Positions 13,798 to 63,444 of a stretch of 64,000 bases of DNA are shown in pieces. This DNA comes from Ophiosphaerella korrae. Its lineage: Eukaryota; Ascomycota; Dothideomycetes; Pleosporales; Phaeosphaeriaceae. The stretch is from positions 107,484-171,483 of the forward strand of contig JALNQF010000091.1 in NCBI GenBank assembly GCA_028456385.1. Direction: 5' to 3'. The stretch's first letter is position 1. Each line of letters starts with the position of its first letter. Under the pieces are notes generated by a model that saw only the letters and a program-made list of their open reading frames with translations, searched no databases and was not told where the DNA came from. The position numbers and the translations under genes were made by a program.

Positions 13798-14255
13798 TGT
13801 TATAGGTGTTACTAGGGTTAACTTCCTAGTACTATAGTTATTAGTAGATAGAGAAGTATTAGTAAAAGCTCGTGTTATAATCTATAATAGGCTATAAATA
13901 GTATAAGATGTTTTGTAACTATCTTAGTATTATTGCTTGTAGTTAATAATTAAATTACTAATACTATCCTAGTAATAGGTATTATTACTAACTATATATT
14001 TATAGTAATCTATTTATATAACCTTATAGATTACTACTAATCTATCTATACGTAATTATAGATTACCTTAATCTATTAGTACGTTATTATAGATTACTAC
14101 TAATCTATCTATACGTAACTATAGATTACTACTACGTATCCTAATTATAAGTAGTTTTCTAATTAAAGTTGTTACCCTACTTGTCCTATACTTTATTAGC
14201 GCCTAAGTTAAGACTAATTAGTTCTAACTTAATTTCTTCTATTACTCCTATACTA
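13798..14255 (-). repeat. 3' LTR of chromovirus K (subtype a)
   Basis: Begins tgttataggtgttac, ends ...cctatacta (from cctataaca). The middle holds several copies of agattactactaatct, a palindrome of inverted AGATTA/TAATCT arms. A minus-strand purine tract (agagggagagatag) lies just inside at 14256-14270. Confidence 0.9.
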
Positions 14256-14261
14256 CTATCT

Positions 14262-14928
14262 CTCCCTCTAAGTAGTTCTTAGTTTTCTTACTCTAAGGCT
14301 AAAGTTATTAATCTAGTTTCTTTATTAATATAAAGTTCTTTATCTTCCCTTATACCCACTAAATCTACTCTTTATTGTCTTCGATTAGTAGATTGTATAT
14401 TACGTTATAGTATTACTATATTTCTTTATTCTTGTTATAAATCTTTAAATCCTCCTCTAGAGTATATTTCTTTAAAATATAGTAAGGCTTACAAGGTATA
14501 TATTTATACTAATACTTATACATCTTATAACTTTTCTAGTATTTCCTTTATAGAATATAGGTTAATAATACTTATTTGTGCGTCTATACTTATTTACAAT
14601 AGGGAGAGCTATTAACTATACTTAAGATAAACTATCTAAATAGATTACTAAGGCTAAAAAAGAACGTAATTAGATTCTAAGTATATAGGTAGAAAATTAT
14701 ACTTATCTAATCTATCTTTATAAGATAAAGGCCTTAAATAATAAAAAATCTATTACTTAGGCTATCTTTATAGAGTCTAAGCTTAATTTTAAAGCTATAG
14801 GAGAGGCTACTCTTACTATATTAGGTGCTCTTATTACCTCTTTATCTAGTAGTAGTATTATTAGTTTTCTTAATTTACTACAAGGCGCTCTAGAGAGTTT
14901 TAACTTTAGAACTCCTCTAGTTTCTTAA
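14262..14928 (+). pseudogene. Antisense ORF (aORF) of chromovirus K, subtype a
   Basis: Read against gag-pol, from the 3' LTR toward pol. The first part includes YSCYKS, then KAYKVY (about 14484-14501) and NREESY-like sequence near 14610. The second part, shifted by one frame, runs from about 14626 to the stop TAA at 14926-14928 and includes YKIKALNNKK, IESKLNFKAIGEATLTILGA and the C-terminus LLQGALESFNFRTPLVS. Interruptions are TAA/TAG where Gln codons would fit. The stop lies 23 nt into the convergent pol gene, whose stop is at 14908-14906. The same protein pattern recurs in D, E (twice), H and I. Function unknown; paired Cys/Tyr positions and a Lys/Glu/Asn-rich helical second half suggest a small metal-binding plus coiled-coil protein, which is only inference. 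Confidence 0.7.
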
Positions 14929-17900
14929 GGTAATTAAGATTATCCTCTAGTTTCTATATTTTTTCCTATAGTTACCCTCTTTTATCTATACCTATCTATT
15001 TTACTAAATAGTAGTTCCTACTATTATAGAACTAGTATACTAGGATTTCTTTAACTTCTTATTCTTCTTATTCTCTATATATATCTACTTTATATACTAG
15101 TAGTTCTACGTTTTATAGTACTATCTTAAGTAGCGCTACGTAGAAAGTTAGGTATATCTTTATCTTGTTTAGTAGCTTTAATTTAAATATAACTAGCGTA
15201 ACTTCTTTCTTAATTTTATATAGTCCTATTTTAACGTAATCTAATTTTAGACTTAATTGTTTGCTCTTAATATTTTTTTATACTAACTATACTTTTTCTC
15301 TTTTTCTAAGTTTAAGTCCTTCTTTATATTTTTTATTATAGTACTTAGCTATATAGTTATATAAGAACTCTACGTCTTATCTTAATTAGTTATATATATC
15401 TTTAAGTCTATTAGTAAAGTTTTCTCCTCTTAGAGACTATAATACTTCTAGTCTTAATATTCTATATACGTTAGGGTTAAATCTATAGTTTATAAAGAAA
15501 AGTAATACTCTTATTACTATATTCTTTACGCTATTGTATACTAACTATGCTATAGGTAATAACTATACCTAATTATTCTAGTTGTAGTTAAGGTAGTATC
15601 TTAAGTATTGTTCTACTATTTAATTTATTCGTTCTAACTATTTGTTTATTTATAGATAATACGCTGTAGATATTACGTGTTTAATTCCTAATTACACTAT
15701 TATTGTTCTCTATAGTTTTAATATAAATCTTACGTCTCTATTTATAATAATCTTATCTAGTAGTTTATATTAACTAATTATAGTTCCTAGAACCTAGTAT
15801 ATAGTAACTTCTATCTTGTTTTTCTCTCTATATAGTCTAAAGTATAAGTACTTTATAACTTTATATACTATTATTAAGATTCTATTATACTTAACTCCTA
15901 ATATTTAATCTTTTAACTTAGGTAACTTTATAATAAAGTCTATTGTAATAACTTCCTATAGTTATTCTAGTACTTCTATTAGTTATAATATTCTATATAG
16001 TGCGTATCTATTATACTTATTTCTATAACATTCTATATAATCTTATAGTACTTCTATTACTAGTTATCTTACTCTTAAGATATAGTAGTCTTATAGTAAC
16101 TTATCTAGGGTTTTATTAATCTCTTAATAACTATATACTAGTAATTTATAAAATTGTTATATAAATTCTCTTTAAATTTTCTTTAGAATATATATTCTTT
16201 TATAGGCTTGTACGAATCCTTCTTAGATTTCTAGCTTTTCTATTTCTTTAGGTACTTCTTGTATTATTTTCTAAATCTATTTGTCTAGCTCGCTACTCTT
16301 CCTTTTAAGTATTATAGCTATTTTAGGTATATTTAGGACTAAGTATCCTTCTTTGTTCTATACTAGAACTATACTAGTAGCGCTTACTTCTTCTTATAAG
16401 TCTAATCTTCTACTAAGAGTATCTATAAATTAGTTATCTTTCCCTTTTATATATATAATTTCTATATTAAATATTAATAGGAATTCTTACTATCTTATAT
16501 ATTATTATAATAGTTCTTTATTTATTATAAATCTTATAAGATTCTTATAGTCTATATAGACCTTTATTTAGTATTTTACTCCTTATAGGTATACTCTCTA
16601 TTATTTAAATACTTTATAGATTACTAGTATCTCTTTATTATAAATTAGATAGTTAAGCTCTACTAGCTTTATTTTCTTAGAGAAGTATTTAACTAAATAT
16701 TCTTTCTTAGTCTTTAGGTCTTCTTGTATTAGTACTATTCTATAGACTAAATTAGATACGTCTATTTTTACTATTACTAGTAGGTCTAGGTTATATATTC
16801 TAATAACTAGGTTTTCTATAAACTTCTTTTTAATTATATTAAATACTTTCTTGTATTCCTTTATCTATTTAAATAGCGTATCCTTCTTTATAAGTTTTAT
16901 TATTAGTTTTATATCTTTAGACTATTTTACTATTAACTTTCTATAAAAGTTTACTAACCTATAAAACTATTATACCTCTTTTAGGTTCTTTAGTGTTAGC
17001 TATTTATTAATTAACTTAATTTTTTCTAAGTTAATCTTAATCTTTCCTAGTTTAATAATAAATCTAAGGAAGTCTATTTCTTTTATATAGAATTTACACT
17101 TTCTTATCTTAAGAAATATTTTACTTTCTACTAGTTTTTCTAGTACCTTATATATATATTATACATGTTCTTCTTCTATTTCTAAAAATATAAAGATGTT
17201 GTCTAGGTATATAAATATAAATATATCTAAGTATTCTCTTAGTACTATATTAATTCTTTCTTAAAAAGCTACTAGTGCATTTATTAAGCTAAAGGGTATA
17301 ACTAAGTACTTATATAGTCTATACTATGTTCTAAATACTATTTTCTATTTATTACCTTTCTTAATTCTAATCTAGTAGTAGGCGTTTTAGATATCTAGTT
17401 TTGTAAAGATTTTTACCTTTTATAGCTTATCTTGTATTTTATTAATCTATAGTAAAGGGTATTAGTTTTTGTTTATAACTATATTTATCTTTCTAAAGTC
17501 TACGTAGAGTCTCTTATTACTTATTCTCTTTTTATCTACAAATATAAGGCTATATACTACTAAGGATTTAGATTCTTATATCTATTCTTTCTTTATTGCG
17601 TTTTAAATAAATACTTGTTTAATCTTATATTCTTCTTCTATTTTCTTATAAACTAGGCTCTATCTTACGTTTTTTCTTTCCTCTAGGTCTATTGCTAAGT
17701 CCTATAGCTTGTATCCTAGGAGGTAGTCTTTAGGTTTAATAAGTTATTTTCCTTATTTCTTATATTCTTCTAGGAATTCTCCTCTATATATGCTTATGTT
17801 AGCTTTTAATATATCTTTCTTTAGGTGACTAATTCTTCTAGTTCTCTAATTAATGTATAGGTTAGTTATCTATAACTATAGTATTTCTAATATTATATCT

Positions 17901-19257
17901 TGTTTGTTATTAATTATTATTATATCTATAACTATATTTTTAATCTTTATCTCTTCTAATTCTAATATAAAGGGAACTATTTTAAACCTTATAGGTTCCT
18001 AAAATAGTTTTCCTTTAATTATACTTAGTTATTAAAGGTACTTCTTTGTTATATAGTATATTCCTTGTATTTCTATAAACTTCTTTAATATAAAGTTCTT
18101 TATAGCTCTACTATTAATTATTAGTTGTACTTTCTTCTCTTAGTATATACCTGTTTTTATAATATGTAGGCCTCTTATACCTTCTAGCTATTCTTACTTA
18201 GGTATTTTTATAAATTATCTATCCTTCTATAGCCATAATCTTATTTTAAGCTTATATTCTTTATATTTTAGATATTTATTATTCTTGTATTTATACTATA
18301 GTCCTCTTTAGACATATTTTTTAGATAGTTTTAGTCTAGGTTTTACTACTACGTAACTATTTTCTAGGGTTACTTCCTATCCTTAGATATCTTCTACTAG
18401 GATTACTCTTGTATAATTGTAGCCTCTTCTTCTTATAGGCTATATATTGTTATTTACTTTAAGGTTTCTATATATAATATAGTTCTTGTCTAAGTATACT
18501 AACTATAATACTTTAAAGTGTACTAGATGTTTTAGATTTATTATTCTATTATCTCCTTTCTAGTACTTATTGTTTCTAGGTATATCTATTATTAGAATAT
18601 AATATACTACTAGTATTCTTAGTATATAGGCTTTATTAATCTATTACATCTTCTTTATAAGGATTTACTATTCTTTTTACATAAGTATTCTTCTTACTAT
18701 AACTATATATTACTTTATCTATTCTTAAAATAGTATAAACTTTATTTTTTTAGGATTACGTTCTTTCTAGTCTTTATACGCTTCCTCTATACTTATAACT
18801 AGTAAGTATTTCTAAATAAACTTCTATTACTTATTTTGTTCCTTTATATCTATTATTATATAGATATTATAGCTATATATATCTAGCTAGGTATACTTTA
18901 TACCTCTTATACTAACTTGTTTCTTACTTTCTTATAGTCCTTTAGAGGAATCTATAGTAGTCTCTTTATCTTATACTAGTCTTTTAGCCTAGATTAATAA
19001 AATCTAGGGTCTTTCCCCTTCTAAGTCTTCTATTAGTAGGTCTATTACGTATACTATTTCTTCTAGCTACGCTTTTATTCTTTTTTCCTTTATTACTACT
19101 ACTCTATTCTTCTATAGGAAATATCCTACTCTTTATTTACTAGAAAGGTATATATAGTAGTTATCTTTATAATAAAAGGTTTAATAGAGTATTATATATT
19201 ATATTTCTTTACTCTTAGCTACTTTTTCCTAAGGTTTAGCCTATACTTTTAGTACTT
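14906..19257 (-). pseudogene. Chromovirus K pol: protease, RT, RNase H, integrase, chromodomain (dead)
   Basis: Right to left: an aspartic protease core reads IINSRA at 18118-18104, where the family has (I/L)DSGA, so the catalytic Asp is Asn and Gly is Arg. RT reads YLDN at 17209-17198 (normally YLDD), embedded in EYLDIFIFIYLDNIFIFLE. RNase H, then integrase with the HHCC zinc region and DDE core, follow. The C-terminus ends in a chromodomain-like stretch and LEEF before TAA at 14908-14906, overlapping the antisense ORF. The fragment is contiguous with 25565-26690 once the copia insertion and one TSD copy are removed. Nearly all interruptions are TAG/TAA. Confidence 0.8.
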
Positions 19258-19262
19258 CCTTT

Positions 19263-19812
19263 TATTAGATAAGTTACACAATTAGATACTTGATAGTATG
19301 TACGTAGAGAGGCGCAACAGATTCTAAGTGTACTTAGAATCTGTTAATTAGCTTACTTAAGCTAGTACTACAATCTAATTAGCTTAGCGCACGGGCGTAA
19401 TAATCGCTAAGCTACTAACCCTACTACAGCTAAAAGGATCGTAGCCTTAACCTTTACAAATAAAGGAATCGAATAAAGAATCTTATATATAAGGAGATAG
19501 ACTACGTTAGTACAACTAATATAATAAAGAAACTAGCACCTTAATAGAAGGAGTGTTAAGGATCTAGCTCGCCGCCGTCTCGAGAGACTTAGCTAAGACC
19601 GCCGTATCGTAGATATATAAATAGAGTATAGGGCTAGAGATAAAGAGAATAATTAATCTACTTAGTTTATACTTATTACTTTTAAGTTATAAGTAACTAA
19701 CTAAAAAAGGGCTTTTCTAAAAGCTTTAGTATCCCTCTCTAATAAGGCCCTTATATAGCTATTACAAAAAAGCCTTTTTATTAAATTGTTATAACCTCTT
19801 TTAAATCTAATA
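19263..19812 (+). repeat. 5' LTR of the copia element
   Basis: Starts tattagataagttacac and ends aaatctaata; both ends fit TG...CA altered by RIP-type changes. It retains a CpG-rich block (ctcgccgccgtctcgag, about 19568-19584) that is largely mutated in the 3' copy. No canonical initiator-tRNA primer site is obvious just downstream. Confidence 0.92.
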
Positions 19813-19864
19813 ATTAAGAGTCTTACTACCTTAACTAAGTTAAGTAAACTAGCATCTACCTACA

Positions 19865-19972
19865 TTAACTCGAGTATTAACTCGAGTATTAACTTAAGTA
19901 TTAACTCGAGCATTAACTCGAGCATTAACTCGAGTATTAACTTAAGTATTAACTCGAGTATTAAGCTAAGCA
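19865..19972 (+). repeat. 12-bp minisatellite with CTCGAG/CTTAAG units in the copia leader
   Basis: Nine tandem units of ttaactcgagta with variants (ttaacttaagta, ttaactcgagca, ttaagctaagca). Each unit contains a 6-bp palindrome, CTCGAG or its C/T-G/A mutated form CTTAAG. It lies between the 5' LTR and the first recognisable coding sequence. Confidence 0.9.
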
Positions 19973-19977
19973 CTATA

Positions 19978-20170
19978 AAGAGCATTAGCGAAAAGTGCTA
20001 ATCTCTTACCCTCTAGTAGCCCTACGCGCGTTAGCAAAAAGTACTATTCTCCTACTCTCTAGTAGCCCTACGCGCGTTAGCGAAAAGTACTATTCTCTTA
20101 CCCTCTAGCAGCACTACGAGCATCTTTAAAAAGGGCATAAATCTCCTACCCTCTAGTAGCCCTCTAACAA
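19978..20170 (+). repeat. ~46-bp tandem repeat in the copia leader
   Basis: Four imperfect units, each containing ctctagtagccctacgcgcg-like sequence then a gttagcgaaaagtact-like stretch. The two middle units are nearly identical; the outer ones are diverged. They keep CpG-rich cores (acgcgcg) in otherwise AT-rich surroundings. Confidence 0.8.
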
Positions 20171-20249
20171 CTCTTAAATTAAGCTAAGCACTATACTTAG
20201 CCTTAACTAAAGCGTACTCTAAAAAGTAACAATCTCTTACTCTTTTATA

Positions 20250-23200
20250 ACTTAAAGCTAAAACAAGATAGCTAGTATAACCTAACGCGATCTAACTATA
20301 ACGTTAAAGACTAATAAGGATTACACTATATAGATAATTTAACTACAATCTAGATGCGTAGTATATAACATTTAGGATAAGATTAACCTAGAATCCTCTA
20401 CCTAGCTAATTTAGAGACTAGAACTAATTAGAGCTCTAGTAATAGCTAACTACACTCTAGTATTAGGTGTTAAGACTCTTACGTAGTAGTCTAAACTCTT
20501 AGCTACTAGTTATAAGGCTTTTAAAGAAGACCTTAAATACTATAAAATATTAGCTAAGTAATACTATAGCGACTAACACAAGTACAAAAAGGAGTAGTTA
20601 AGTCTTTAGTATATTATAACGTTTATCTAATCCTTAGTCTCGCTATATCTACTACGAACGTGCTACCTACTAAACTAATCTCTACGTTAGTAGCTATTAA
20701 ACCTAAAGTAAACTGTTAGCGTAGACGAGCGTATTAAGCAAGAGCGTATACGTAATAGATACCTTAAATTACTTAAGCTTATAAGAAGCCTAGTAAATTA
20801 GGATATATAGATAGCTAAGTATAACTATACTACTACTAAGGCTAAAACGTATTAAGTAGTAGAGTTACTATAAATTAATGTAATTACTTAAGACTTTTTA
20901 GTAGCTATTAAATACGTAGTACTAATTTAGTCTATAACCTTTTAAGATAATAGAAAGCTATTACTTAGTATAAACTAGAGAGAGATAATAAAACACTACT
21001 ATAAGTATATAATAGTATACTATCCCCTAAATATAGAAAGGCGTAAAGCTACTTTTATAGTAGATAATATCTTACCTTATGCTACTAGTAGTAATACTAC
21101 CTAGGGTAAGACTAGAGACGCCTCTCTTATAGATAGCGCACTACTTAATAAATAGGGTAGACCTTGTAATTAATATATATATAGTAGTAATGCTAACGTT
21201 AACTAAATAATAAGTTAAAAAGCTATAAGTAAATAATACCTAGCTTGTAAAAGACCTTACAAACTTAGTAATTACTACTATATTAATTTTAACAAAGTAC
21301 TAGATTAGTAGACTCTAAGTAAGACTCTAAAAGAGCTTATTAATTATAAATGTAAGTATAATATAACCTTGTAAAGACTAATAAAAGGATAGTTAAAGTA
21401 TTAAATAAAGCCTTATATAGAACTATACGCTAAGTTACCTTAAATTACTAAAATCTATAAGGAAGATTAACTAGAAGGCTAGTAAATATTAAGTATTAAG
21501 AGTATTTTTGTTACTAAAACTATAAGGAATACTTATAATACCTACTCTCTCTAGAATTCCTTTATCCTAGACTCTAGTTTAACCTACTATATTACAAATA
21601 ACCTAACTTGTGTATACAACTATTATCTATTAAGGCTAAATAATTATATATAGGTAGGCAAGTTAAAGATATAAGTAAAAGGATATAGATCTCTTACCCT
21701 TACACTAAAAAACTAGTTAATAGAAAATAAACTAGTTTTATATAACGTAGCTATATACCTAGATATCTTTTGTAACCTAGTCTCTTTCTAGCTACTCTAG
21801 TAGAGAGGAATATAGTAGAACACTTAATCTAAGCTAACAACTCTAAACAAGCCTAATAGATAAACAATTAGATACCTTACTAAGATCTATAGTTAATAAG
21901 TACTTAAGTATTATTTACTATACAATCTTATATACTAAGTAGCGCACTATACTTATAAACTTTAGACTATTAAAGTACTCGTACTACTATAGTACAAGAG
22001 ACTTAGCTATCTAGGACTAGCTATAATCGAACACCTTGTCTAGTAAGCTCAAGGGGTGCGTATAAAAGGAGTATCTATAGTCTAGTATAACGTATATAGT
22101 AAAGCTAAGATAAAGTAGTAAATTAGCTATATACTAAGAATTAGTTACAAAGGACTAAGAGAAAGACTCTCTATTAACTTCTACTTATATAAAGTATAAA
22201 GTGTTACTAAAGAGAAAAGCTAGATACTTATTACTAATAAGTACTTAAAACTATAGTAAGACTTCTACTTTACTAATAACTAGTTAGCTAAATTAATTAT
22301 TAAGATACTATTAAACTTAACTCTCTTCTTAAAGAATTAGTATAGTATCTTAGTTAAGGTAATTAAAGCTAATAACAAGATTACAATAGTAAAACTAGAG
22401 GTCTAGCGCTAGTTAAACTCGTAAGGTATTACTATTAAACCTTTAGCTCTAGATACTTAAGCCTAAAATAGAGAAGCTAAGCGAGCTAGAAGAATTAACA
22501 AAGAAAAGTTACGTACTATATAACTTAACGCAAATCTACTATAAGAGCTTTAGCTTAAAATTATATAGGCTAGAGTCTACCTATATAATTAAACGCTAAG
22601 TTACTTAAACAACTAGAAGACACTATATAAAGTATTCTTTACAAAAGTTACTAAGAATTAAGGAATTATAGTATTAATAAGAAAGCTAAACTTAGCCTAC
22701 TTAAAAGTATATAGGTGTAAAGCCTTTACAATAACTAATAATATATAGCGTAGTAAATTAAGGCTATAACGTTTAGATCTAAAAGTATAGATTAGCTACC
22801 TTGTAAGATACTAGTTATTAAATATCTACTAGATCTAGGTACTATCTATAGCTAAGGTAATAAGTATATAGGATATAATCTTTAACAAGTAAATAATCTT
22901 TAATAGCAAAATAGAAGATCTAATAGATAACTTTATATATTAAATACTAGAAGAGATTACTACTTATATTAAAACAATCGAGCTCTTAGCACTAGTGTAC
23001 GAGCTAGAAATAGAGTCCTTCTATAAAGATAATACTAAGTTAGATATATCTACAAATAATAAAGAAAATCTACCTAGCTACTACTATAGAAGAAAGATTG
23101 TAGACTACTATCTAACTCTTCTACTATTTCTACCTCTAGTAGTAATACTAGCCTATTTAATAACTAGAGACTAACTAGAGTTAATAGTACACAATAGATA

Positions 23201-24910
23201 TAGCTTATCTAAAACTATACTATAGGTAGTAGCCTTTATAGCTAGTACCTAGGTAGGTAACTTTAGAAAATACTAAAGAGAACTTGTAGACAAAGCTAAG
23301 ATAAAGAAGATACTTATAAAAGGACTAAAGCTCTACTATAATTAACTCCTATTACTACTCTTATACTAAATAAACCTAGAAAGCTATCTAATAGGCGAGT
23401 TATTTAAAGAAGCTAAGCTATCCTACCTAACTAGCTATCGCTAGATAAAATTATAGACTAAAGTACTAGCTAAACCTATCTAGCGTTCTAGCTAGTAGAT
23501 ACTAGACTATATATAGGTATATACGTACAAGCTTAATAAATATTATTAATTTATTAAATGCAAAGCTCGACTTGTAGTATAAGGAGACTAGTAACAAAAC
23601 GTTATAGTATAAGAGACTTATACTATAATACTAGCTAGCTAATCCTTTTAGATACTTATAGCTATTACTACTAAATATAATCTTAAACTAAAATAGTATA
23701 ATATAACTAACGCCTTTATTTATATAGTAATAGACTAAGAGATCTATATAAGAATACTAAGGAGATACTAAAAGAAGAGTATAATCCTTAGAGTCTAAAA
23801 GGCCCTATATAGTTTCTAGATCTTACCTCTCCTATAGTAGAAAGAATTTACGGCTACACTTAAAGCTATAGGCTTTTAAATAGTACTATACAAACTATAC
23901 TATATAGTTAAAGATAGAATTATTATCTTCTTCTACGTAGATAATATTATTATCGCATATAACAAGTAGAAGACTAAAGAAGTATAGTAAGTAACTAATC
24001 TTCTAAAAGAGAAGTATACTATTACTAGAGGAATAGATCTCTAATAGTTTCTTAGTATTAAAGTAATTTAAGATAGAGAGTAATATATAATTTAACTACT
24101 ATAGGCAGCGTATATTAACAAGATAAGTTAGCTCGTAGATAAACTATACGTCTATTACGATATACCTATAGCTGCTACTAAACTTAAGGCCTATACTAGT
24201 TTAGTAATACTATCTAAGATTAATAAATACTAACACAAAATTAGTTTACTTCTATTTACTACTATAACTACTTAGCTAGATATAGCTTTTGTAATATCGC
24301 GACTAGCTCGTTTTCTAGTAAACCTAAGCACTACTTACTATAAAGCTACTAATTAAGTACTTATATACTTCTCTTATACGAGATTAAGAGTACTCTAGCT
24401 AGGTAGAGGCGACTTATTATAAGTTACTAGTAATACTTCCTTTACTAATAATACTATAGACTAAAAAAGTTTACAAAGCTACACAATTAAACTTTTTAAT
24501 AGGCTTATTGTATAGAGAGTAAATAAGTAAGATATAGTTACTACCTCTATAACTAAAGCTAAGTTGCTAGCCCTATTATAGGTAGTAAAAGAAGTATTCT
24601 TTATATTAAAACTTCTTAACAAACTATACGTTAAGCTCCCTACAAACTATATTACAATCTAGTGCAATAATACTTAAATAATCTAGCTTGTTACTAAAGA
24701 ACTAGCTAAGCTACAAACTAAGCTTTAGCACGTTAATATCTACAATTATTAGCTAAGACAAGAGGTCTCTACTAGCTAAATTAAAGTAGAATATACTCTA
24801 TTAATAGAGATAATAGTAGATAGCTTTATAAAAGTCTTACTAGTAAATAAATAAGAAAGCTTCTTAAAATAGCTTAGACTAATAGAAGTAATAGAATACT
24901 AAACAACATA
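20250..24910 (+). pseudogene. Copia gag-pol: protease, integrase, RT, RNase H (dead)
   Basis: Gag-like sequence occupies about 20300-21400. A protease core reads ILDSSLTYYIT near 21560-21600 (family ILDSGAxxHxT; the Asp is kept, Gly is Ser). Integrase covers about 21900-22600, including a degraded zinc region and SYKGPRE-like sequence. RT begins around 23380 and has FFYVDNIIIAY at about 23928-23960, with YVDN (23934-23945) replacing YVDD. RNase H (about 24400-24880) shows SNTSFTNNTID, CNNTQ where CDNTQ is usual, and the region matching LRHVDIxxHWLRQE with His and Asp changed. Stops are TAG/TAA at Gln or Trp positions. The reading is by eye, but order and motifs are diagnostic of Ty1/copia. 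Confidence 0.85.
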
Positions 24911-25007
24911 TAAAGCACCTCTAGATAAAATCTAAGACTACCTCGAAAATCTTATACTTATCTTATAAATATCTAGCTTACTAACAAGTTACTAACCTAA
25001 AGGGGTG

Positions 25008-25559
25008 TATTAGATAAGTTATACAATTAGATACTCGATAGTATATATATATAGAGAGGCGTAACAGATTCTAGGTATACCTAGAATCTATTAATTAGCT
25101 TGCTTAAGCTAGTGCTACGATCTAATTAGCTTAGCGCATAGGCGTAACAATTGCTAAGCTACTAACCTTACTATAGCTAAAAGGATTATAGCCTCGACCT
25201 TTATAAACAAAGGAATTAAATAAAGAATCTTATATACAAGAAGATAGACTATATTAGTATAACTAATATAATAAAGAAACTAGTACCTTAATAGAAGGGG
25301 TGTTAAGGATCTCGCTTACTACTATCTTAAGAGACCTAGCTAAGACTACCGTATTATAGATATATAAATAGAGTGTAGGGCTAGAGATAGAGAGAACAAT
25401 TAATCTACTTAGTTTATACTTATTACTTTTAAGTTATAGGTAACTAACTAAAAAAGGGCTTTTCTAAAAGCCTTAGTATTCCTCTCTAATAAGGCCTTTA
25501 TATAGCTATTACAAAAAAGCCTTTTTATTAAATTACTATAACCTCTTTTAAATCTAATA
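25008..25559 (+). repeat. 3' LTR of the copia element
   Basis: Near-identical to 19263-19812; differences are almost all C/T or G/A. Where the 5' copy has the ctcgccgccgtctcgag block this copy reads ctcgcttactactatcttaag-like sequence. Ends aaatctaata followed by the TSD ccttt. Confidence 0.92.
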
Positions 25560-25564
25560 CCTTT

Positions 25565-26698
25565 TTACTCTTAGTTATTTTTAACTATATTTCTTTATCC
25601 TTTTTATAGTCCTTACTTCTATAGTTTTTTATAAAGTGTCTTAGTTTTCTATATTTATAATATACTATATCCTTTTTCTTTATTAATTAGTAGTTCTTTA
25701 CGTAGTAGCCTTTCTTGCTATAGTTAAAGTACGTAAAGTCTTTTTTTTTCTTCCTATTCTTGTTAGCGTTAAGGATTATAAGGTCTCTAGTATCTTAGTT
25801 TCTAGGTTAGGTACTATACTTGTTCTTCTTCTATTCTTAAAGATTATTATTAATTTGTATTACTTATTACTTTAGAGCTTCTAATATCCTTAGTTTCTCT
25901 ATATAGATTATTTTGTATTAGATTTTCTTATTTAATCCTTGTTTAAATCGTAATATTAGAGCTAATTTATTCTATTCTATGTTTTGCGATAGTTGTTTAA
26001 AATATAATACATACTCTAGAATACTCTTATTCTGTTTTAGCCTTTTAAGTTTTTCTTTAGCTTATTAGGTAATATTTATATCCCTAAATACTACTTTTAT
26101 TCGCCTAGTAAAGTATTTATAACTTCTAAAAATAGCTCTAGTTTTATCCTTTTAGTTTATTAGAGTATATATTATATAGTCTATCTAGTAAGGTTTAAAC
26201 TATCTTATTATATCTTTCTTGAAGTGCATTCTAATATATATTACTTTTTTCTCTTCTATATTAAAGTATAGTACTTGTATATCTATCTAGAGTTATACTA
26301 ATACTATAAAGAGTCTTAGTTATTCTCTTGTTCTATTAAATTTTCTAAGGACAGGTATCTTAGGTAGTTTCTTCGTCGCACTTATTTCTAGTTATTAGGT
26401 AATTAGTTCTATTTAGTTCTAACCTTTAATAATAGCTTTAATTTATACTTTATTTTACTTTACGTAGTCTTATAGTTCTTTATTCTATATTTCTAAAGCT
26501 TTAATTACTATCTTTATATCTTCTTTGTCGTTAATTAATTTATTAATATAATCCTTAATCGTTTCCAATATAGTACTATCTAACTTATAGCTACTCTTAG
26601 GGGCTTTACTTATTTATTTAGTTAAACTTTCTACTATTATGTTAGCTAGACCGCGCGCTACTTACGCTTCGCTTCTCCTAATAACTAAATTAGCAAGG
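25565..26698 (-). pseudogene. Chromovirus K gag with two degraded zinc knuckles
   Basis: The 5' half of K, right of the copia insertion, read right to left from the 5' LTR. Two CCHC-type knuckles are recognisable at about 25743-25605 as YFNYSKKGYYVKNY and YYKYRKLRHFIKNY, with Tyr where Cys is expected (TGC/TGT to TAC/TAT). Upstream capsid-like sequence is alpha-helical and charged and matches D, E, G and H. No tRNA primer site of the usual TGG type sits directly next to the LTR; the sequence there reads caccttgctaatttag. Confidence 0.75.
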
Positions 26699-27156
26699 TG
26701 TTATAGGTGTTACTAGGGTCGACTTCCTAGTACTATAGTTATTAGTAGATAGAGAGGTAATAACAAAAGCTTATATTATAATCTATAATAGGCTATAAAT
26801 AGTAGAAGATGTTTTGCAACTATCTTAGTATTATTACTTGTAGTTAATAATTAAATTGCCAATACTATCCTAGTAATAAGTATTGTTACTAACTATATAT
26901 TCGTAGTAATCTGTTTGTATAACCTTATAGATTACTACTAATCTATCTATACGTAATTATAGATTACCTTGATTTGTTAGTACGTTATTATAGATTACTA
27001 CTAATCTATCTACACGTAACTATAGATTACTACTACGTGTCCTAATTGTAAGTAGTTTCCTAATTAAAGTTATTACCCTACTCGTCCTATACTTTGTTAG
27101 CGCCTAAGTTAGGACTAATTAGTTCTAACTCGATTTCTTCTGTTACTCCTATAACA
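26699..27156 (-). repeat. 5' LTR of chromovirus K (subtype a)
   Basis: Direct repeat of 13798-14255, same length. It best preserves the terminal inverted repeat tgttatagg...cctataaca. Differences from the other copy are C/T or G/A, with each copy keeping the ancestral base at different sites. Followed by TSD ttatt. Confidence 0.92.
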
Positions 27157-45600: not shown

Positions 45601-48116
45601 ATAGAAGGTAGAGATCTTTACGAAACTAGATATCTAGAACGTATACTATTAGATTAGAATTAAGAAAGGTAACAAATAGAAAATAGTATTTAGAATATAA
45701 TATAGACTATATAAATATATAGTTATACCTTTTAGTCTAATTAATGTACTAGTAGTATTTTAGGAAAGAATTAACATAGTACTAAGAGAGTACTTAGACG
45801 TATTTATATTTGCATACTTAGACAATATCCTTATATTCTTAGAAATAGAAGAAGAATACGTATAATACGTATATAAAGTGCTAGAAAAGCTAGTAAAAGC
45901 TAAAATATTTCTTAAGATAAGAAAATGTAAATTCTATACAAAGGAAATAGATTTCCTAGGATTTATTATAGAACTAGGAAAAATTAAGATTAACCTAGGA
46001 AAGATTAGATTAATTAACGAATAGCTAACACTAAAAAACCTAAAGGAGGTATAATAATTTTATAGGCTAGCTAACTTTTGTAGAAAGTTAATAGTAGGAT
46101 AGTTAAAGATATAGAACTAATAATAAAACTTATAAAAAAAGATACACTATTTAAATAGATAAAAGAATACAACAAAGTATTTAATAAGATTAAGAAGAAG
46201 TTTATAGAAAACCTAGTTATTAGAATATACAACCTAGACCTACTAGTAATAGTAAAAACAGACGTATCTAACTTAGTCTATAGAATAGCACTAATATAAA
46301 AAGACCTAGAGACTAAAAAAGAATACTTAGTTAAATACTTCTCTAAGAAAATAAAGCTAGTAGAGCTTAACTATTTAATCTACGATAAAGAGATACTAGT
46401 AATCTATAAAGTATTTAAGTAATAGAGAGTATACTTATAAGGAGTAAAATATATAACAAAAGTCTATATAGACTATAAGAATCTTATAGGATTTATGCTA
46501 AACAAAGAACTATTATAACGCTATACAAGATAGTAGGAATTCCTATTAATATTTAATATAGAAATTATATATATAAAGGGAAAGATAATTAACTTATAGA
46601 CGCTCTTAGTAGAAGACTAGACTTACAAGAAGAAGTAAACGCAACTAGTATAGTTTTAGTTAAGAACAAAGAAGGATACTTAATTCTAAATACACCTAAA
46701 ATAGCTACAACACTTAAAAGAAGGAGTAGCGAGCTAGACAAATAGATTTAGAAAACAACGTAAGAAGTATCTAAAGAAATAGAGAAACTAGAAATCTATA
46801 AAGGACTCGCACAAGTATATAGAAGAATATATATTCTAAAGAAAATCTAAAGAGAATTTGTACAACAGTTTTACAAATTACTAGTATATAGTTACTAAGG
46901 GATTAATAAGACCCTAGATAGGTTACTATAAGATTACTATATCCTAAAAGTAAGATAACTAGTAATAGAGGTACTACAAGACTATATAGAATATTAAAGA
47001 AACAAGTATAATAGATACGCACTATATAGGATACTATAACTAATAGAAGTACTAGAACAACTATAGGGAGTTATTACAATAGACTTTATTACGAAGCTAC
47101 TAAAGTCTAAAGACCTAATATTAGAGGTTAAATATAATAGAATCCTAATAATAGTAGATAAACTTACGAAGTACTTATACTTTAAACCGCACAAAGAAAA
47201 GAGTAGAATAGAAGTTACTATATACTAGGTTCTAGGAACTATAATTAGTTAATATAGACTACTAGATAAGATTATTATAGATAGAGATGTAAGGTTTATA
47301 TTAAAACTATAGGGAACAATAATAGTATAACTAGGAATTAAATACGTAATATCTATAGCATATTACCTATAGATAGATAGATAATTAGAATAAATAAATT
47401 AGATAATAGAATAGTACTTAAGATGCTACCTTAACTATAACTAGAACAATTAGGTATAGCTATTACCTATAGTATAGTTAGTATACAATAGCGTAAAGAA
47501 TATAGTAATAAAAGTATTACTCTTCTTTATAAATTATAGATATAAACCTAGTGTATATAGAATACTAAGAATAGAGATATCTTAGTCCTTAAGAGGAGAA
47601 AGCTTTACTAATAGACTTAAAGACATATATAATTAACTAAGATAAGATATAGAATTCCTATGTAATTAAATAGTAAAATACTACAATAAAAAGTATAAAG
47701 AGAGACCTTAATTTAGAGAGAGAGAAAAAGTATAGTTAGTATAAAAAAATATTAAGAGTAAATAGCCTAACTTAAAATTAGACTACGTTAAGATAGGACT
47801 ATATAAAATTAAGAGAAAAGTTACACTAGTTATATTTAGACTAAAGCTACTAAATAAGATAAAGATACACCTAACTTTCTACGTAGCGCTACTTAAGATA
47901 GCACTATAGAATATAGAACTACTAGTGTATAAAGTAGATACGTATAGAGAACAAGAAGAATAAGAAGTTAAGAAAATTCTAGTATATTAGTTCTATAACA
48001 GTAGGAACTACTACTTAGTAAGATAGATAGGTATAAACGAGAAAGGGCAACTATAGGAAGAAACGTAGGAACTAGAAGATAATCTTAACTACCTTAAGAA
48101 ACTAGAGGAGTTCTAA
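42622..48116 (+). pseudogene. Chromovirus E body: gag, protease, RT, RNase H, integrase, chromodomain (dead)
   Basis: Zinc knuckles at about 43597-43720; the first keeps one Cys (TCFNYSKKGYYVKDY), the others are Tyr. Protease IINSRA near 44903-44920. RT YLDN at 45815-45826 (FIFAYLDNILIFLE). RNase H near 46250-46500. Integrase about 46560-47900: ITIDFITKL near 47080 (first catalytic Asp present) and IIDRDVRFILK near 47275 (second Asp present). A chromodomain-like C-terminus at about 47967-48113 has EVKKILVY, YYLVR and LNYLKKLEEF where chromodomains have a YLVKW core and a LEEF end. Stop TAA at 48114-48116. Part of this reading frame probably derives from the nested subtype-a element. Confidence 0.8.
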
Positions 48117-48760
48117 AGTTAAAACCCTCTAGAGCGTCTAGTAGTAAACTAAGAGAACTAACATTACTACTACTAGATAGAGAGATAATAGGAGCGTCTA
48201 GTATAGTAGGAGTAGCCTTAACTATAGCTTTAAAATTAAGTTTAGACTTAATAAGAGTAGCTTAAGTAATAGACTTTTTATTATTTAAGGCCTTTGTCTT
48301 ATAAAGATAAACTAAACGAGCGTAATTTTCTACTTATATACTTAGAATATAATTACGTTCCTTTTTAGCTACAGCGATCTATTTAGACAGTTTATCTTAA
48401 GTACAGTTAATAGCTCTCCCTATTATAAATAAGTATAGACGTATAGATAAGTATTGTTAACCTATATTCTACAAGAGAAACACTAGAAAGGTTATAAGAC
48501 GCATAAGCATTAGTATAAATATATACCTTGTAGGCCTTACTATACTTTAAAGAAATATACTCTAGAAGAGGATTTAAAGATTTACAACAAGAATAAGGAA
48601 ATATAGTAACGCTATAACGTAATATACAATCTACTAATTAAAGATAGTAAAGGGTAGACTTAGTAGGTATAAGGGAGGATAAAGAACTCTATATTAATAA
48701 AGAAACTAGGTTAATAACTTTAGCCTTAGATTAGGAAAACTAAGACCTGTCTAGAGGGGA
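48094..48760 (-). pseudogene. Antisense ORF in E body, subtype a
   Basis: Runs from the inner subtype-a LTR leftwards to the stop at 48096-48094, 23 nt inside pol. Its C-terminal half resembles that of D and K (ESKLNFKAI-type) rather than the subtype-b copy 2 kb to the right. This supports the idea that this stretch came from a subtype-a element. Interruptions are TAA/TAG; function unknown. Confidence 0.6.
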
Positions 48761-48766
48761 AGATAG

Positions 48767-49229
48767 TGTTATAGGCGTAATAAGAGAAATTAAGATAGAA
48801 CTAATTAGTCTTAACTTAGGTGCTAACGAAGTATAGGACGAGTAGAGTAACAACCTTAATTAGGAGACTATATATAATTAGGATACGTAGTACTAATCTA
48901 TAGTTATATAAGAATAGATTAGTAGTAATCTATAATAACGTAAGAATAAATTAGAGTAATCTATAGTTACGTGTATATAGATTAGTAGTAATCTATAGAG
49001 TAATATAGATAGATTACTATAAGTATATAGTTAATACAAATATATATTATTAGGATAGTATTAGTAATTTAATCCTTTAACTATAGAACGCTAATACAAG
49101 ATAGTTATAAAATATCTTCTATTATTTATAGTTATTGTAGATTCTAATACAAGCTTTTATTATTACCTCTTAATCTACTAACTCTCTTAATTAGGTATTA
49201 GGAAGTTAACCCTAGTAATACCTATTATA
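48767..49229 (+). repeat. Subtype-a 3' LTR stranded inside chromovirus E
   Basis: Starts tgttataggcgtaataag directly after a purine tract (agaggggaagatag) and ends aatacctattata. Only one subtype-a LTR lies inside E; its 5' partner is absent. Followed at 49230 by tatttatac, equivalent to the integrase sequence tacttatac near 47173, marking the original insertion point. Confidence 0.88.
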
Positions 49230-50174
49230 TATTTATACTTTAGACTATATAAAGAAAAAAGTAGGATAGAAGTTACTATATACTAGGTTCTAGGAACTAT
49301 AATTAGCTAATATAGACTACTAGATAAGATTATTATAGATAGAGATATATAATTTATATTAAAACTATAGAGAATAATAATAGCGTAATTAGAAATTAAG
49401 TATATAATGTTAATAGCATACTACCTATAGATAGATAGATAATTAGAGTAAATAAATTAGATAGTAGAATAGTACTTAAGATACTACTTTAACTACAACT
49501 AGAATAACTAGGTATAGTTACTACCTATAGCATAGTTAGCTTATAATAGCGTAAAGAATATAGTAATAAAAGTATTACCCTTCTTTATAAACTATAGATT
49601 TAAACCTAGTATATATAGAATACTAAAGAATATAGAATCCTAGTCTCTAAAAAGAGAAAACTTTACTAATAAACTTAAAGATATATATAATTAACTAAGA
49701 CAAGATATAGAATTCTTATATAATAAAATAGCTAAGTACTATAATAGAAAGTATAAAAAGGGACCTTAATTTAAAAAGAGAGAAAAAGTATAGTTAGTAT
49801 AAAAAAATATTAAGAGTAAACAACCTAGTTTAAAACTAGACTACGTTAAGATAAAACTATATAAAGTAGAAAAAGAAGTTATACTAGTTACATTTAAAAT
49901 AAAGCTACTAGATAAAATAAGGATATACTTAATATTCTATATAGTACTACTTAAAATAGTACTATAAGACGTAGAACTACTAGTATATAAAGTAGATATA
50001 TATAGAGAACAAGAAGAATAAGAAGTTAAAGAAATCTTAGTATACTAGTTCTATAATAGAAGGAACTACTACTTAGTAAAATAGATAAGAATAGATAAGA
50101 AAGGAAAACTATAGGAAGATATATAGGAACTAGAAGAAAATCTTAGTTACTTTAAGAAGTTAGAGGAGTTCTAA
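49230..50174 (+). pseudogene. Chromovirus E tail: integrase end and chromodomain (subtype b)
   Basis: Second copy of the integrase C-terminal half, parallel to 47171-48116: IIIDRDI near 49330, LLVYKVDIYREQEEQEVKEILVY near 49985, then a chromodomain-like YYLVKQIRIDKKGKL and LEENLSYFKKLEEF, stop TAA at 50172-50174. This is the 3' end of E proper, separated from its 5' part by the nested LTR. Confidence 0.78.
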
Positions 50175-50836
50175 AATTAAAACCCTCTAGAACGCTTAGT
50201 AGTAAACTAAGAGAACTAATATTACTACTACTAGATAGAGAGGCGATAGGAACGTATAACGTAAGACCTACTATAGTAATAGTAGTATTAAACGCCTTAT
50301 CTAAGTCTAGCTTAGCTTCTAGAGCTACTAACTACTTAGCTAATTTCTTATTATTTAACGCCTTTATCTTATAAAGACAAGAGAGATAAGCTTAATTTTT
50401 TACTAGCTTACTCTACGTAAGCTCTTAGATCTACTTATGCTCTACTTTAGCCTTTGCGATTTTAGATAGTAATTTTACTTAAGTCTAGTTAATAGCTTTT
50501 CTTATTATTATTAAGCCTAGACGCAAGAATAAGTATAATAAACCTATACTTAGAAAGAGAGATACTAGATATATTATAAGAGCTACGTATATTTGCACAA
50601 ATATATACCTTATAAGCCTTACTATTATTTATAGAAATAATATAAGGAAGAGACTTAGGGTTTAACTTAGGAGAAGCATAACAAGAATAAGGAAATATCT
50701 TAATACTATTGCGTAACACACAATTAGTAAGAAGATAGTAATAATATATAGATAAAATAACTATAGGGAGTAATAAAGAATTATAGATTAATAAGAAAAG
50801 TAGATTAATAACCTTAGCTCTAAGATAGATAAACAA
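50152..50836 (-). pseudogene. Antisense ORF in E tail, subtype b; N-terminal half still open
   Basis: The frame from 50836 to 50489 is open for 115 codons, remarkable in DNA where stops occur every few codons. It begins at TTG, not ATG, about 25 bp inside the LTR, so the true start is lost or lies elsewhere. It contains IFPYSCYASPKLNPKSLPY, KAYKVYICANIRSSYNISS and ends at NNNKKSY-stop. After a one-base frame offset the second half contains YKIKALNNKKLAK, LEAKLDLDKAFNTT and LEGFNFRTPL, with stop at 50154-50152, 23 nt inside pol. The closest copy is that of element I. Function unknown. Confidence 0.72.
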
Positions 50837-50860
50837 GGACCTACTTAAAAGAGGAGATAG

Positions 50861-51290
50861 TATTACAATAGTAATAAGAGAGCTATAGATAGAGCTAATT
50901 AGCTCTATAATAATAGACTTAGAATTATATAACTCTAAAGGGTAAGGACTTAATTAGGAGGCTACATATAATTAGGACACCTAGGGTAATCTATAATCTA
51001 TAGACTTTTAGTATTAATAGATTATAGATTAGGGTAATCTACGATCTATTAGTCTTAGCAACTATAGATTATAGATTACAACAAGTATATAGTTAGTAAC
51101 AATACGTATTATTAGGATAGTATTAGTAATTTAATTATTAACTACAAGCGATAATACTAAGATAGTTGTAAAATATCTTCTATTATTTATAGCTTATTAT
51201 AGATTACTATATAAACTTTTGTTATTACCTTGTAATCTACTAATACTCTAATTAGGTATTAGGAAGTTAACTCTAGTAACACCTATTATA
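50861..51290 (+). repeat. 3' LTR of chromovirus E (subtype b)
   Basis: 430 bp, starts tattacaatagtaataag after the purine tract agaggagatag, ends cacctattata, followed by TSD tatta. Confidence 0.92.
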
Positions 51291-51295
51291 TATTA

Positions 51296-52896
51296 TAACG
51301 CTATATAAGATAATAGGAATTCTTATTAATATTTAACTTAGAAATTATATACGTAAAAGAGAAAGACAATTAATTTATAGACGCCTTTAGTAGAAGACTA
51401 GACTTATAAGAAGAAGTAAATACTACTAGTATAGTTCTAGTTAAGAATATAGAAAGATATTTAGTTCTAAATACACCTAAAATAGCTATAATACTTAAGA
51501 GAGAGAGTAGCAAGCTAGATAAATAGATTTAGAAAATAACGTAAGAAGTATCTAAAGAAATAGAGAAACTAGAGATCTAAGAAGGATTTGCATAAGTATA
51601 TAGAAGAATATTTATTCTAAGAAAGATCTAAAGAGAATTTATATAATAATTCTATAAATTACTAGTATATAGATACTAAGAAATTAATAAAACTCTAGAT
51701 AGACTACTATAAGAGTACTATATCTTAAAAGTAAGATAACTAGTAATAGAAGTACTATAGGACTATATAGAATAGTAGAAAAACAAGTATAGTAGATACG
51801 TACTATACAAGATACTATAACTAGTTAAAGTACTAGAATAACTATAGGGAGTTATTACAATAGACTTTATTACAAAGTTACTAAAGTTAAAAGACTTAAT
51901 AATAGGAATTAAGTATAATAAAATCCTAATAATAGTAGATTAGCCTATAAAGTAATTATACTTTAAGCTATATAAAAAGAAAAGTAAGATAGAGGTTACT
52001 ATATACTAGGTTCTAGGAACTATAATTAGTTAATATAAACTACTAGACAAGATTATTACTAATAGAGATATAAGATTTATATTAAAACTATAGAGAATAA
52101 TAATAGTATAATTAGGAATATAACACGTAATATCTACTATATATTATCTATAAATAGATAGATAATTAGAATAAATAAATTAGATAGTAGAGTAATACTT
52201 AAGATACTACCTTAACTATAACTAGAATAATTAGGTATAGTTACTACCTATAGTATAGTTAGTATATAATAGCGTAAAGAATATAGTAATAAGAGTATTA
52301 CCTTTCTTTATAAATTATAGATTTAACCCTAACGCGTACTAAATACTAAGAACCTAGATATCTTAGTCTCTAAGAATAAAAAACTTTACTAATAGACTTA
52401 AGAATATATACAATTAACTAAGATAGGATATAGAATTCCTATACAATTAAATAGTAAAATATTACAATAAAAATATAAAGAGAGACCCTAATTTAGAGAA
52501 AGAGAATAAGTATAGTTAGTACGAAAGAATATTAAGAGTAAACAACTAAGCTTAAAACTAGACTACGTTAAAATAAGACTATACAAAATTAAGAAAGAAG
52601 TTATACTAGTTATATTTAAATTAAAGCTACTGAATAAAATAAAGATATACTTAACCTTTTACGTAGTATTACTTAAGATAGTAATATAAAACGTAGAACT
52701 ACTAGTGTATAAAGTAGATACGTATAAAGAATAAGAAGAATAAGAAGTTAAAAAAATCCTAGTATACTAATTCTATAATAGAAGAAACTACTACTTAGTA
52801 GAATAGATAGGTATAGATAAAAAAGGACAATTATAAGAAAATATATAGGAACTAGAAGATAACCTTAATTACCCTAAGAAACTAGAGGAGTTCTAA
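51296..52896 (+). pseudogene. Chromovirus D pol, second part: RNase H end, integrase, chromodomain (dead)
   Basis: Resumes exactly where D was interrupted at 42191 and is collinear with 46518-48116 of E. Integrase zinc region about 51600-51800, TIDFITKLLK near 51860, then the DDE core; the chromodomain-like end lies at about 52729-52893 (LVYQFYNRRNYYLV type, partly masked by stops). Stop TAA at 52894-52896 overlaps the antisense ORF by 23 nt. Confidence 0.78.
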
Positions 52897-53540
52897 AGTT
52901 AAAACTTTCTAGAGCGCTTTATAGTAAACTAAGAAAATTAATATTACTACTACTAGATAGAGAGGTAATAGGAACGCTTAATATAATAGGAGTAGCCTCT
53001 ACTATAGCTTTAAAATTAAGCTTAGACTCTATAAGAGTAGCTTAAGTAGTAGACTTCTTATTATTTAAGGCCTTTGTCTTATAAAGACAAATTAGACGAG
53101 CGTAATTTTCTACCTATTTACTTAGGATCTAATTATATTCTTTTTTAGCTTTAGTAATCTATTTAGATAGTTTATCTTAAGTATAGTTAATAGCTCTCCC
53201 TATTATAAATAAGTATAGACGTATAAATAAGTATTATTAACTTATATTCTATAAGAAATACACTAGAAAGATTATAAGAAGTATAAGTATAAATATAAAT
53301 ATATACCTTATAAGCCTTACTATATTTTAAAGAAATATACTCTATAAGAGAGTTTAAAGATTTGTAATAAGAATAAAGAAATATAGTAATACTATAACGT
53401 AATACGTAATCTACTAATTAAAGATAAAAGAAAGTAGATTTAGTAGGTATAAGGGAGGATAAAGAGCTTTATATTAATAAAGAAACTAGGTTAATAACTT
53501 TAGCTCTAGAGTAGACAAACTAGAACCTACTTAGAGGAGG
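52874..53540 (-). pseudogene. Antisense ORF of chromovirus D, subtype a
   Basis: C-terminal half reads RLICLYKTKALNNKKSTT, then LIESKLNFKAIVEATP and INFLSLL, with stop TAG at 52876-52874. Interruptions occur at TAA positions matching Gln in other copies. The N-terminal half, near the LTR, is more degraded. Closest to the copies in K and E body. Confidence 0.65.
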
Positions 53541-53546
53541 AGATAG

Positions 53547-55974: not shown

Positions 55975-56426
55975 TATTATAAGCTTACTAGGGTTAACTT
56001 CTTAGTAGCTTATAATTAGGGTATTAGTAGATTAAGAAGTAATAACAAAAGCTTATATTATAATCTATAATAAGCTATAAATAATAGAAGATATTTTACA
56101 ACTATCTAAATATTATTACCTATAGTTAATAATTAAATTACTAATACTATCTTAATAATACGTATTATTACTAACTATATACTTATAGTATTTTACCTAA
56201 CTTTATAGCTTTATAAGTACTAAGCCTTATAAAGTTATAAAGTTCTATAACTACTAGCTTTATAGCTTTATAGGTACTAAGCCTTATAAAGCTATAAAGT
56301 TATTACGTATCTCTATTATAGTTAGTTTCTTAATTAAGTTCTTTATCTTATAGGTTGTATATATTATTATTATTTATAGTAGGAGTAATTAGTTTAAATT
56401 AGTTTTCTTTTATTACTACTATAATA
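55975..56426 (-). repeat. 3' LTR of chromovirus H (subtype c)
   Basis: Shares both ends with subtypes a and b, but the central AATCTATAG-type repeats are replaced by two long inverted repeats, at 56199-56244 (18-bp arms, one mismatch, aactttatagctttataa) and about 56255-56300. Ends ctataata. Confidence 0.92.
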
Positions 56427-56429
56427 CTA

Positions 56430-62991: not shown

Positions 62992-63008
62992 CCTATAAGA
63001 AGAAGAGG

Positions 63009-63438: not shown

Positions 63439-63444
63439 CTATTT

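Follow-up and report, generated by a model that had tools for sequence, protein, structure and literature searches.

A putative brtn-type antisense gene coupled to U3 inverted-repeat arrays in Ty3/gypsy retrotransposons of Ophiosphaerella korrae

Long terminal repeat (LTR) retrotransposons of fungi and plants are known to carry additional genes on the strand opposite gag-pol, between pol and the 3' LTR. The closest described example is brtn, the antisense gene of the Boty elements of Botrytis cinerea (Zhao 2011, as cited in the excerpted text of PMC8365987, PMC7264820, PMC5987419 and PMC4227169). In plants, the authors suggest a nuclear or DNA-binding role for the aORF-3R genes (gene23 of Grande, RIRE2, TRP28 of Retand; excerpts of PMC7264820 and PMC11963269), and the function of such genes in plants and Botrytis is given as not known (excerpt of PMC7264820). 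Here we analyzed a 64,000-nucleotide stretch of the Ophiosphaerella korrae genome (contig JALNQF010000091.1, positions 107,484 to 171,483 of the forward strand; hereafter the window), in which Ty3/gypsy elements, represented by element K, carry a gene in this position. We propose, at a probability of roughly 45%, that it is an antisense gene of the brtn type whose product binds zinc, probably forms a dimer and regulates the element's own U3; template switching would reassort the gene together with the binding sites. The proposal is drawn from sequence. An antisense gene at this position is already known from brtn; no coupling of such a gene to a U3 array, and no joint exchange of the two, was met with in the literature searched, subscription papers lying mostly outside its scope.

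The likeness to brtn is one of position and strand: both are extra genes of fungal gypsy elements that run opposite to gag-pol and lie between pol and the 3' LTR, and the excerpts of the papers citing brtn mention neither an exchange of the gene with U3 nor a six-cysteine motif. An earlier inspection of the window from its letters (hereafter the sequence-only reading) had not recognised the antisense gene, whose placement is nevertheless the one reported for brtn in those excerpts. The plant genes differ in belonging to plant families and in having other protein domains, and no linked U3 array is described for them in the excerpts of PMC7264820 and PMC11963269.

In element K, the gene is on the plus strand, between the pol stop at 14870 and the 3' LTR (13798-14252). 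By tblastn with both gene halves, we found all six copies that the sequence-only reading had picked out in the window by their antisense motifs, in the three subtypes a, b and c:

14169-14958, plus strand: copy of K, subtype a
48070-48853, minus strand: copy of subtype a
52844-53633, minus strand: copy of subtype a
50122-50908, minus strand: copy of subtype b
63391-64000, plus strand: copy of subtype b, cut by the window end
56343-57144, plus strand: copy of subtype c, within the LTR element 55975-62992

The claim that every chromovirus of the window carries the gene did not hold, since the matches at 27070, 33329 and 37957, at an LTR end or at most slightly beyond it, are limited to the first 30-57 query residues; they may be truncated copies. 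The genome of which the window is part (63 Mb in 974 contigs) was searched as well, and every candidate scored was a match (the best 40 of 2027 first-look candidates for DNA and the best 150 of 2011 for protein). With about 2000 first-look candidates per gene query, genome copy numbers are lower bounds. The retrotransposons carrying the gene are dead copies, and all copies looked at were AT-rich, consistent with heavy repeat-induced point mutation (RIP).

Because RIP makes transitions, copies were compared by transversions only. The divergence profiles of the subtypes delimited a block of heterology, which we denote the cassette:

13990..14850, no strand assigned: U3 part of the LTR plus the antisense gene, to the pol end

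Within the cassette, transversion divergence per 50 nt, measured on up to 73 copies, was 0.12-0.27 between subtypes and 0.01-0.05 within them, against 0.031 and 0.029 in flanking pol. For subtypes a, b and c, the left edge fell between the steps at 13950 (0.030 between, 0.032 within) and 14000 (0.227 and 0.051), and the right edge between those at 14800 (0.137 and 0.020) and 14850 (0.033 and 0.012). Divergence between subtypes was milder at 14250-14350 inside the block (0.05-0.09 per 50 nt). The stretch 14253-14350, just inside the 3' LTR, is pyrimidine-rich on the plus strand and perhaps holds the polypurine tract and more. Single comparisons gave the same profile. Between K and the c element (55975-62992), pol was mostly at 0.000-0.053 per 150 nt, with three windows at 0.073-0.093 and 0.027 overall, and the windows from 13948 to 14848 were at 0.155-0.26. 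K and b copies differed by 0.12-0.20 in the block and 0.00-0.04 in pol, and K and two other a copies showed no jump at the block, their R-U5 ends differing by 0.10-0.14. For a versus b, the N-terminal part of the gene was at 0.162 and four pol sections at 0.031-0.075; the same sections reached 0.036-0.084 within a, up to 0.123 within c and up to 0.173 within d, a further subtype from the genome-wide search. The R-U5 side (13798-13989) varies within subtypes (0.128 among a copies) and, in contrast to U3, shows only weak sorting by subtype.

Linkage and the 50-nt steps were measured on a larger alignment of 83 copies (31 a, 32 b, 11 c, 9 d); all alignments leave out L001, L014, L029 and L031, which are identical to window copies, and these measurements also leave out a_L041. 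Pairwise distances (3081 pairs, a-d) were correlated between U3 and gene (r = 0.89) but neither between gene and pol (0.03) nor between U3 and pol (0.00). The nearest neighbor was of the same subtype in 71/72 cases for U3 and in 73/73 for the gene, on which the subtypes were defined; for pol the counts were 38/72 (14961-15250) and 47/71 (14961-15850), and among 2000 trials with permuted labels the pol difference was reached 320 and 168 times, respectively. Sampling by pol gave the same picture. Among 20 stretches beside the pol sequences nearest to that of K, none was of K's subtype, 11 being b, seven a c-like fifth subtype (e), one d-like and one rearranged; C843 and C600, which are on the same list but outside the 20, had previously been classed as a. 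Segment coordinates in this sample are off by a few bases, its reference lacking some columns. Taken together, the correlations, neighbor counts and pol-based sampling indicate that in the longer run the history of the cassette has been separate from that of gag-pol, and we are highly confident that the cassette is real.

The U3 part of the cassette contains arrays of inverted repeats that differ by subtype:

13994..14134, no strand assigned: array of K (a), inverted repeats TAATCTAT-N-ATAGATTA (Tandem Repeats Finder: 14024-14134, 32-bp unit, 3.5 copies)
50987-51078: LTR part of subtype b beside the gene at 50122-50908, doubled TAATCTA/TATAGAT units
56227..56303, no strand assigned: U3 array of subtype c, doublets TTATAAAG / TAGCTTTA / TATAAAGC in alternating orientation

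The b array has doubled half-sites with the core of a, and the c array has doublets of a different core (GCTTTATA/TATAAAGC). By eye, the d array is a-like, and the e array is a direct repeat of about 50 bp whose left half resembles the c doublet; 2/10 c copies also score for the e motif. Array classes were assigned with a loose doublet threshold, by which 7/10 d and 2/31 a copies were scored as b, 2/10 c copies as e, and one a and one d copy as having none. Occurrences of exact octamers present at least three times in U3 numbered 35, 30, 39, 24 and 14 in subtypes a to e, against 5-9 in Markov shuffles, and inverted repeats with 8-nt arms numbered 4.3, 6.4, 3.7, 2.4 and 1.0 per copy, against 0.5-1.1. 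Repeated octamers in R-U5 and pol were near chance, except in the R-U5 of d (9.2 versus 4.8). In L021 (231-1026, minus strand) and L041 (293-1125, minus strand), a d/a-like antisense gene stands beside another version of U3 that has no inverted-repeat array.

The gene itself comprises two reading frames:

14334..14615, plus strand: antisense N frame, 93 open codons in K, closed by TAA
14614..14930, plus strand: antisense C frame with YKIKALNNKK, +1 relative to the N frame, its end part overlapping the end of pol

Selection was tested on transversions, or purine/pyrimidine classes, between subtypes in an alignment of 86 copies (31 a, 32 b, 12 c, 11 d), with pol as control. Over 14400-14604, the ratio of nonsynonymous to synonymous changes (dN/dS) in the N frame was 0.54 (interval 0.37-0.77). 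The remaining five frames gave 0.84-1.70, all with intervals including 1, and the mirror sense frame of the N part was at 0.84 (0.59-1.28). In this comparison of frames, which the sequence-only reading had proposed, the N frame alone is therefore set below 1. Adding subtype e gave 0.55 (0.40-0.77), in an alignment whose reference lacks some columns, so that labels and coordinates are off by a few bases and frames were matched by their values. Taken singly, 4/6 subtype pairs excluded 1. In the pol control (a versus b, three sections), the correct frame scored 0.21, 0.40 and 0.58 and its mirror was likewise low (0.50, 0.57, 0.79), so the test is effective provided that the mirror frame is checked alongside. 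A first phase test had found only a modest excess at third positions.

Consistent with coding, the segment 14351-14848 has a length divisible by three in 82/86 copies, and 64 of 72 gaps among eight representative copies are multiples of three. Stops per 100 codons were 0-4.7 by subtype in the N frame, against 8.1 in shuffles, and 6.2-9.1 in the C frame; the three sense frames of the N part carried 3.3-17.8. The suggestion that most stops lie at Gln positions altered by RIP was not borne out, as only one of nine columns with stops in more than 30% of copies has Gln and three others have only Arg. It should be noted that among the 365 codons of pol there are 38 such stop columns, of which 12 likewise lack Gln, Trp and Arg, so the stops decide little. 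We conclude that the N-part protein is very probably real, and to this extent the claim of selection on a real protein is upheld; its extension to the C part is weak.

Six columns of the N frame are split between Cys, present in some copies, and Tyr, present in nearly all of the rest:

14427..14528, plus strand: six-Cys motif, codons at 14427, 14436, 14463, 14490, 14499 and 14526, Cys/Tyr polymorphism among copies

RIP converts TGY to TAY and never the reverse, so that a Cys/Tyr column points to an ancestral Cys; in K all six codons read Tyr, as RIP would leave them. Subtype b has Cys codons at each of the six positions and subtype a at all but the fifth, and by eye L101, L103, L111 and L110 (subtype e plus L110) jointly show Cys at all six. 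In L110, a head-to-head rearrangement, the end of pol adjoins a c/e-like antisense gene in inverted orientation. In columns 14433 and 14505 Arg is seen too, and Arg is the better reading there. No copy matched in a search for Cys codons at the KAYKVY site. With the motif anchor unmatched in 4/86 copies, the spacing is C-x2-C-x8-C-x8-C-x2-C-x8-C in all matched a (29/29) and d (11/11) copies; the second and third gaps are x11/x9 in 31/32 b copies and x6/x9 in 10/10 matched c copies, and e and L110 are like c by eye. The fungal Zn2Cys6 pattern is CX2CX6CX5-12CX2CX6-8C, and the c/e gaps (2, 6, 9, 2, 8) agree with it. The loop between the second and third Cys holds one or two Lys in the a, b, d and e copies shown and none in the c copy, and RIP may have removed loop Arg. 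Given the few basic loop residues and the lack of a Pfam profile match, we do not class the protein as a Zn2Cys6 member. A putative zinc site of six Cys is probable.

The C frame is less clear. In the copies viewed, the part with YSCY and KAYKVY and the part with YKIKALNNKK are offset by +1, and a TAA at 14613, where the two frames meet, is present in 86/86 aligned copies, within a junction AGC-TAT-TAA (AGC in 84/86, TAT in 82/86). Open runs were measured in 74/86 copies, the sequence stretches of the other 12 (nine d, three c) starting inside. The motifs described as one protein with N- and C-terminal parts are thus present, but in two frames. By-eye inspection found no intron that could replace the frameshift; a +1 frameshift at the conserved junction, leading into the C frame, is a possibility that we regard as doubtful. 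The C frame looks helical by eye. The supposedly persistent C-terminus, LES/GFNFRxxLVS, turned out not to support an antisense protein: FNFRxxLVS starts at 14899, over the last codons of pol (stop at 14870), and between-subtype divergence at 14,849-14,960 is at the level of pol, so its conservation is explained by pol.

How these parts might work together can be outlined as follows. The N-terminal frame of the accessory gene between pol and the 3' LTR would give a small six-cysteine, presumably zinc-binding domain, and the second frame, perhaps reached by a +1 frameshift at TAT-TAA-C, a C-terminal extension. The protein would bind, as a dimer, the array of inverted repeats of its own U3 and act there as a regulator (autorepressor or activator); in the 5' LTR this array would precede the sense promoter, and in the 3' LTR it would precede the antisense gene. 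A regulatory role for the element fits the six-Cys motif together with the coupling to a U3 with arrays, and we tentatively suggest, from this coupling, the palindromic design of the sites and the motif, that the protein acts on its own array. For the counter-silencing role that the sequence-only reading had also raised, evidence was found neither in favor nor against. Toward its 3' end, the genomic RNA would run through pol, antisense gene, polypurine tract, U3 and R. In co-packaged RNAs, template switching in homologous gag-pol plus strand transfer at R (the U3/R border) would then reassort gene and U3 as a unit; as gene and array are side by side, the whole cassette would be exchanged and the regulator kept with its sites. 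Strand-switching recombination has been reported for variants of Drosophila LTR elements (excerpt of PMC12992720).

We further speculate, with considerable doubt, that each subtype might encode a zinc-cluster regulator specific for its own palindromic U3 array. If so, co-resident subtypes would be insulated from each other's repression, and several cassettes could be maintained as a balanced polymorphism within a single recombining pool of gag-pol. In lambdoid phages, the immunity region joins a repressor gene to its operators, and this heterologous block sits in backgrounds that can be exchanged. The cassette is likewise a heterologous block in a common background, whereas the pairing of protein and sites is here a proposal and the exchange would run by reverse transcription. 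HBZ of human T-cell leukemia virus type 1 (HTLV-1) is a bZIP protein that represses the LTR; it differs from the six-Cys protein in this domain and in its retroviral origin, with no evidence of homology. The likeness lies in an antisense, nuclear retroelement protein with a regulatory role; HBZ is named in the excerpt of PMC11963269. An antisense gene co-inherited with a U3 array and shuffled against gag-pol makes binding to the array of its own subtype, and to no other, the question; were this so, LTR retrotransposons would encode a type-specific control of their own, akin to the immunity groups of phages. The transversion-only test also offers a route to detecting selection in RIP-ravaged DNA without mending the sequence.

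Several observations weigh against this regulator. In c a Cys codon is found at only three or four positions of the motif, and d has none, its 11 copies showing Tyr only; the second gap departs from the Zn2Cys6 pattern in a and d (x8) and in b (x11). Zn_clus gave no Pfam match at E<=5 or 10, a weak test on RIPped sequences, and the antisense protein had nothing above the Pfam cut-off and no homologue in the PDB. A profile search of the kind that the sequence-only reading had called for, and a C-frame query, returned no protein homologue at E<=1 (7984 candidates scored with the A3 profile, 107 with the C-frame query). A reverse transcriptase (RT) piece used as control had 36 matches (4e-60 to 2e-6; best identity 39-50%), of which two had species names, the fungus Aureobasidium and a sponge; few fungal proteins are apparently in the database searched, and the absence of homologues says little. 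In the coding tests, the pairs ab and bd (2/6) do not exclude 1, one sense frame at 14169-14350 (LTR end plus upstream stretch, where no gene is expected) scored 0.50 (0.29-0.83), and by mean BLOSUM62 of substitutions neither antisense frame is the mildest. The C frame has a stop at 14758 in 86/86 copies, and its dN/dS over 14606-14848 (0.71, interval 0.52-1.13) is not separable from that of the mirror sense frame (0.61, 0.41-1.01), so that the phase is suggestive and the strand ambiguous. As for linkage, same-subtype neighbors in pol exceed the roughly 27/72 expected from group sizes, which implies that recent relatives share cassette and pol and that linkage is incomplete; R-U5 also keeps some subtype linkage (51/70 neighbors; 0/2000 permutations). 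Ten of the 11 pol-sampled b copies, at near-equal distances, may be one recent lineage.

The linkage of gene and array may also be mere adjacency: the antisense protein could be real but unrelated to the arrays (for example a chaperone, or a protein of nuclear import or counter-silencing), with the arrays binding host factors. Linkage of neighboring heterologous DNA needs no function, and two copies with a related gene, a_L041 and d_L021, have no array. A parallel is offered by Tnt1, a copia-type element. In this tobacco element, discrete U3 versions that define subfamilies are found on a common coding background, as here, but it is the U3 that varies, and no antisense gene is described in the excerpt of PMC1838419. 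However, L107 and L040 combine gene b and array b with an a-type stretch of U3 between them, although the two may be one event. In addition, the array design tracks the kinship of the genes by eye, with single half-sites in a and d, doubled ones with the same core in b, another core in c, and, beside the c-like gene of e, a unit with a left half similar to that of c. We consider adjacency without function possible but not the likely explanation.

The other explanations deny the antisense protein. That the cassette acts as an antisense transcript or double-stranded RNA, silencing gag-pol or escaping silencing, with the frames as relics, would suit the weak C frame and the antisense RNA roles discussed for plant elements (excerpt of PMC7264820). 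The N-frame dN/dS of 0.54, its few stops, the Cys positions kept across subtypes and the lengths in multiples of three make this improbable. It is very improbable that the block is a sense-strand extension of pol with the antisense frame as its mirror: the mirror frame of the C part is as constrained (0.61), yet that of the N part is not (0.84 versus 0.54), and the sense frames there are interrupted by the stops given above. Least probable is an artefact in which similar AT-rich copies mimic conservation through RIP and relatedness. The copies are indeed AT-rich and not independent, and one upstream sense frame is also under 1; the tests, however, used purine/pyrimidine classes, which RIP transitions leave unchanged, and were made between subtypes with a pol control.

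Gypsy-type elements occupy the AT-rich parts of the window, and K and the c element are delimited as follows:

13798..14252, minus strand: 3' LTR of K, 455 bp, paired with the 5' LTR at 26699-27153, pol being on the minus strand
26699..27153, minus strand: 5' LTR of K, separated from the rest by the nested element 19263-25559
14870..17617, minus strand: pol of K, bounded by its stop and by the beginning of the RT piece (RVT_1, RNase H)
55975-56427 and 62540-62992: LTRs of the c-subtype element

The LTRs of K are 92.5% identical, with a transversion divergence of 0.004. Its pol, with the stop codon at 14870-14872, contains RT and RNase H at 17617-16604, on the strand opposite the antisense gene, and both match Pfam profiles (PF00078, 6e-16; PF17919, 3e-13; PF17917, 8e-7), in line with a Ty3/gypsy element. 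No chromodomain (PF00385) was found at the end of K pol at E<=1, and SH3_Tf2-1 just before it scored 0.0058, under its cut-off. No Rfam match was found in the window. K spans 13798-27153 and is split by the nested LTR element at 19263-25559, whose LTRs are about 550 bp long and 89% identical. At 33240-54050, partial elements are arranged head to tail with spacings of 4.3-4.8 kb plus 2.06 and 2.72 kb, subtypes a and b being mixed. In the GC-rich flank, 2067-2536 is likely a host gene, whose product presumably resembles, by eye, an EBP-type sterol isomerase.
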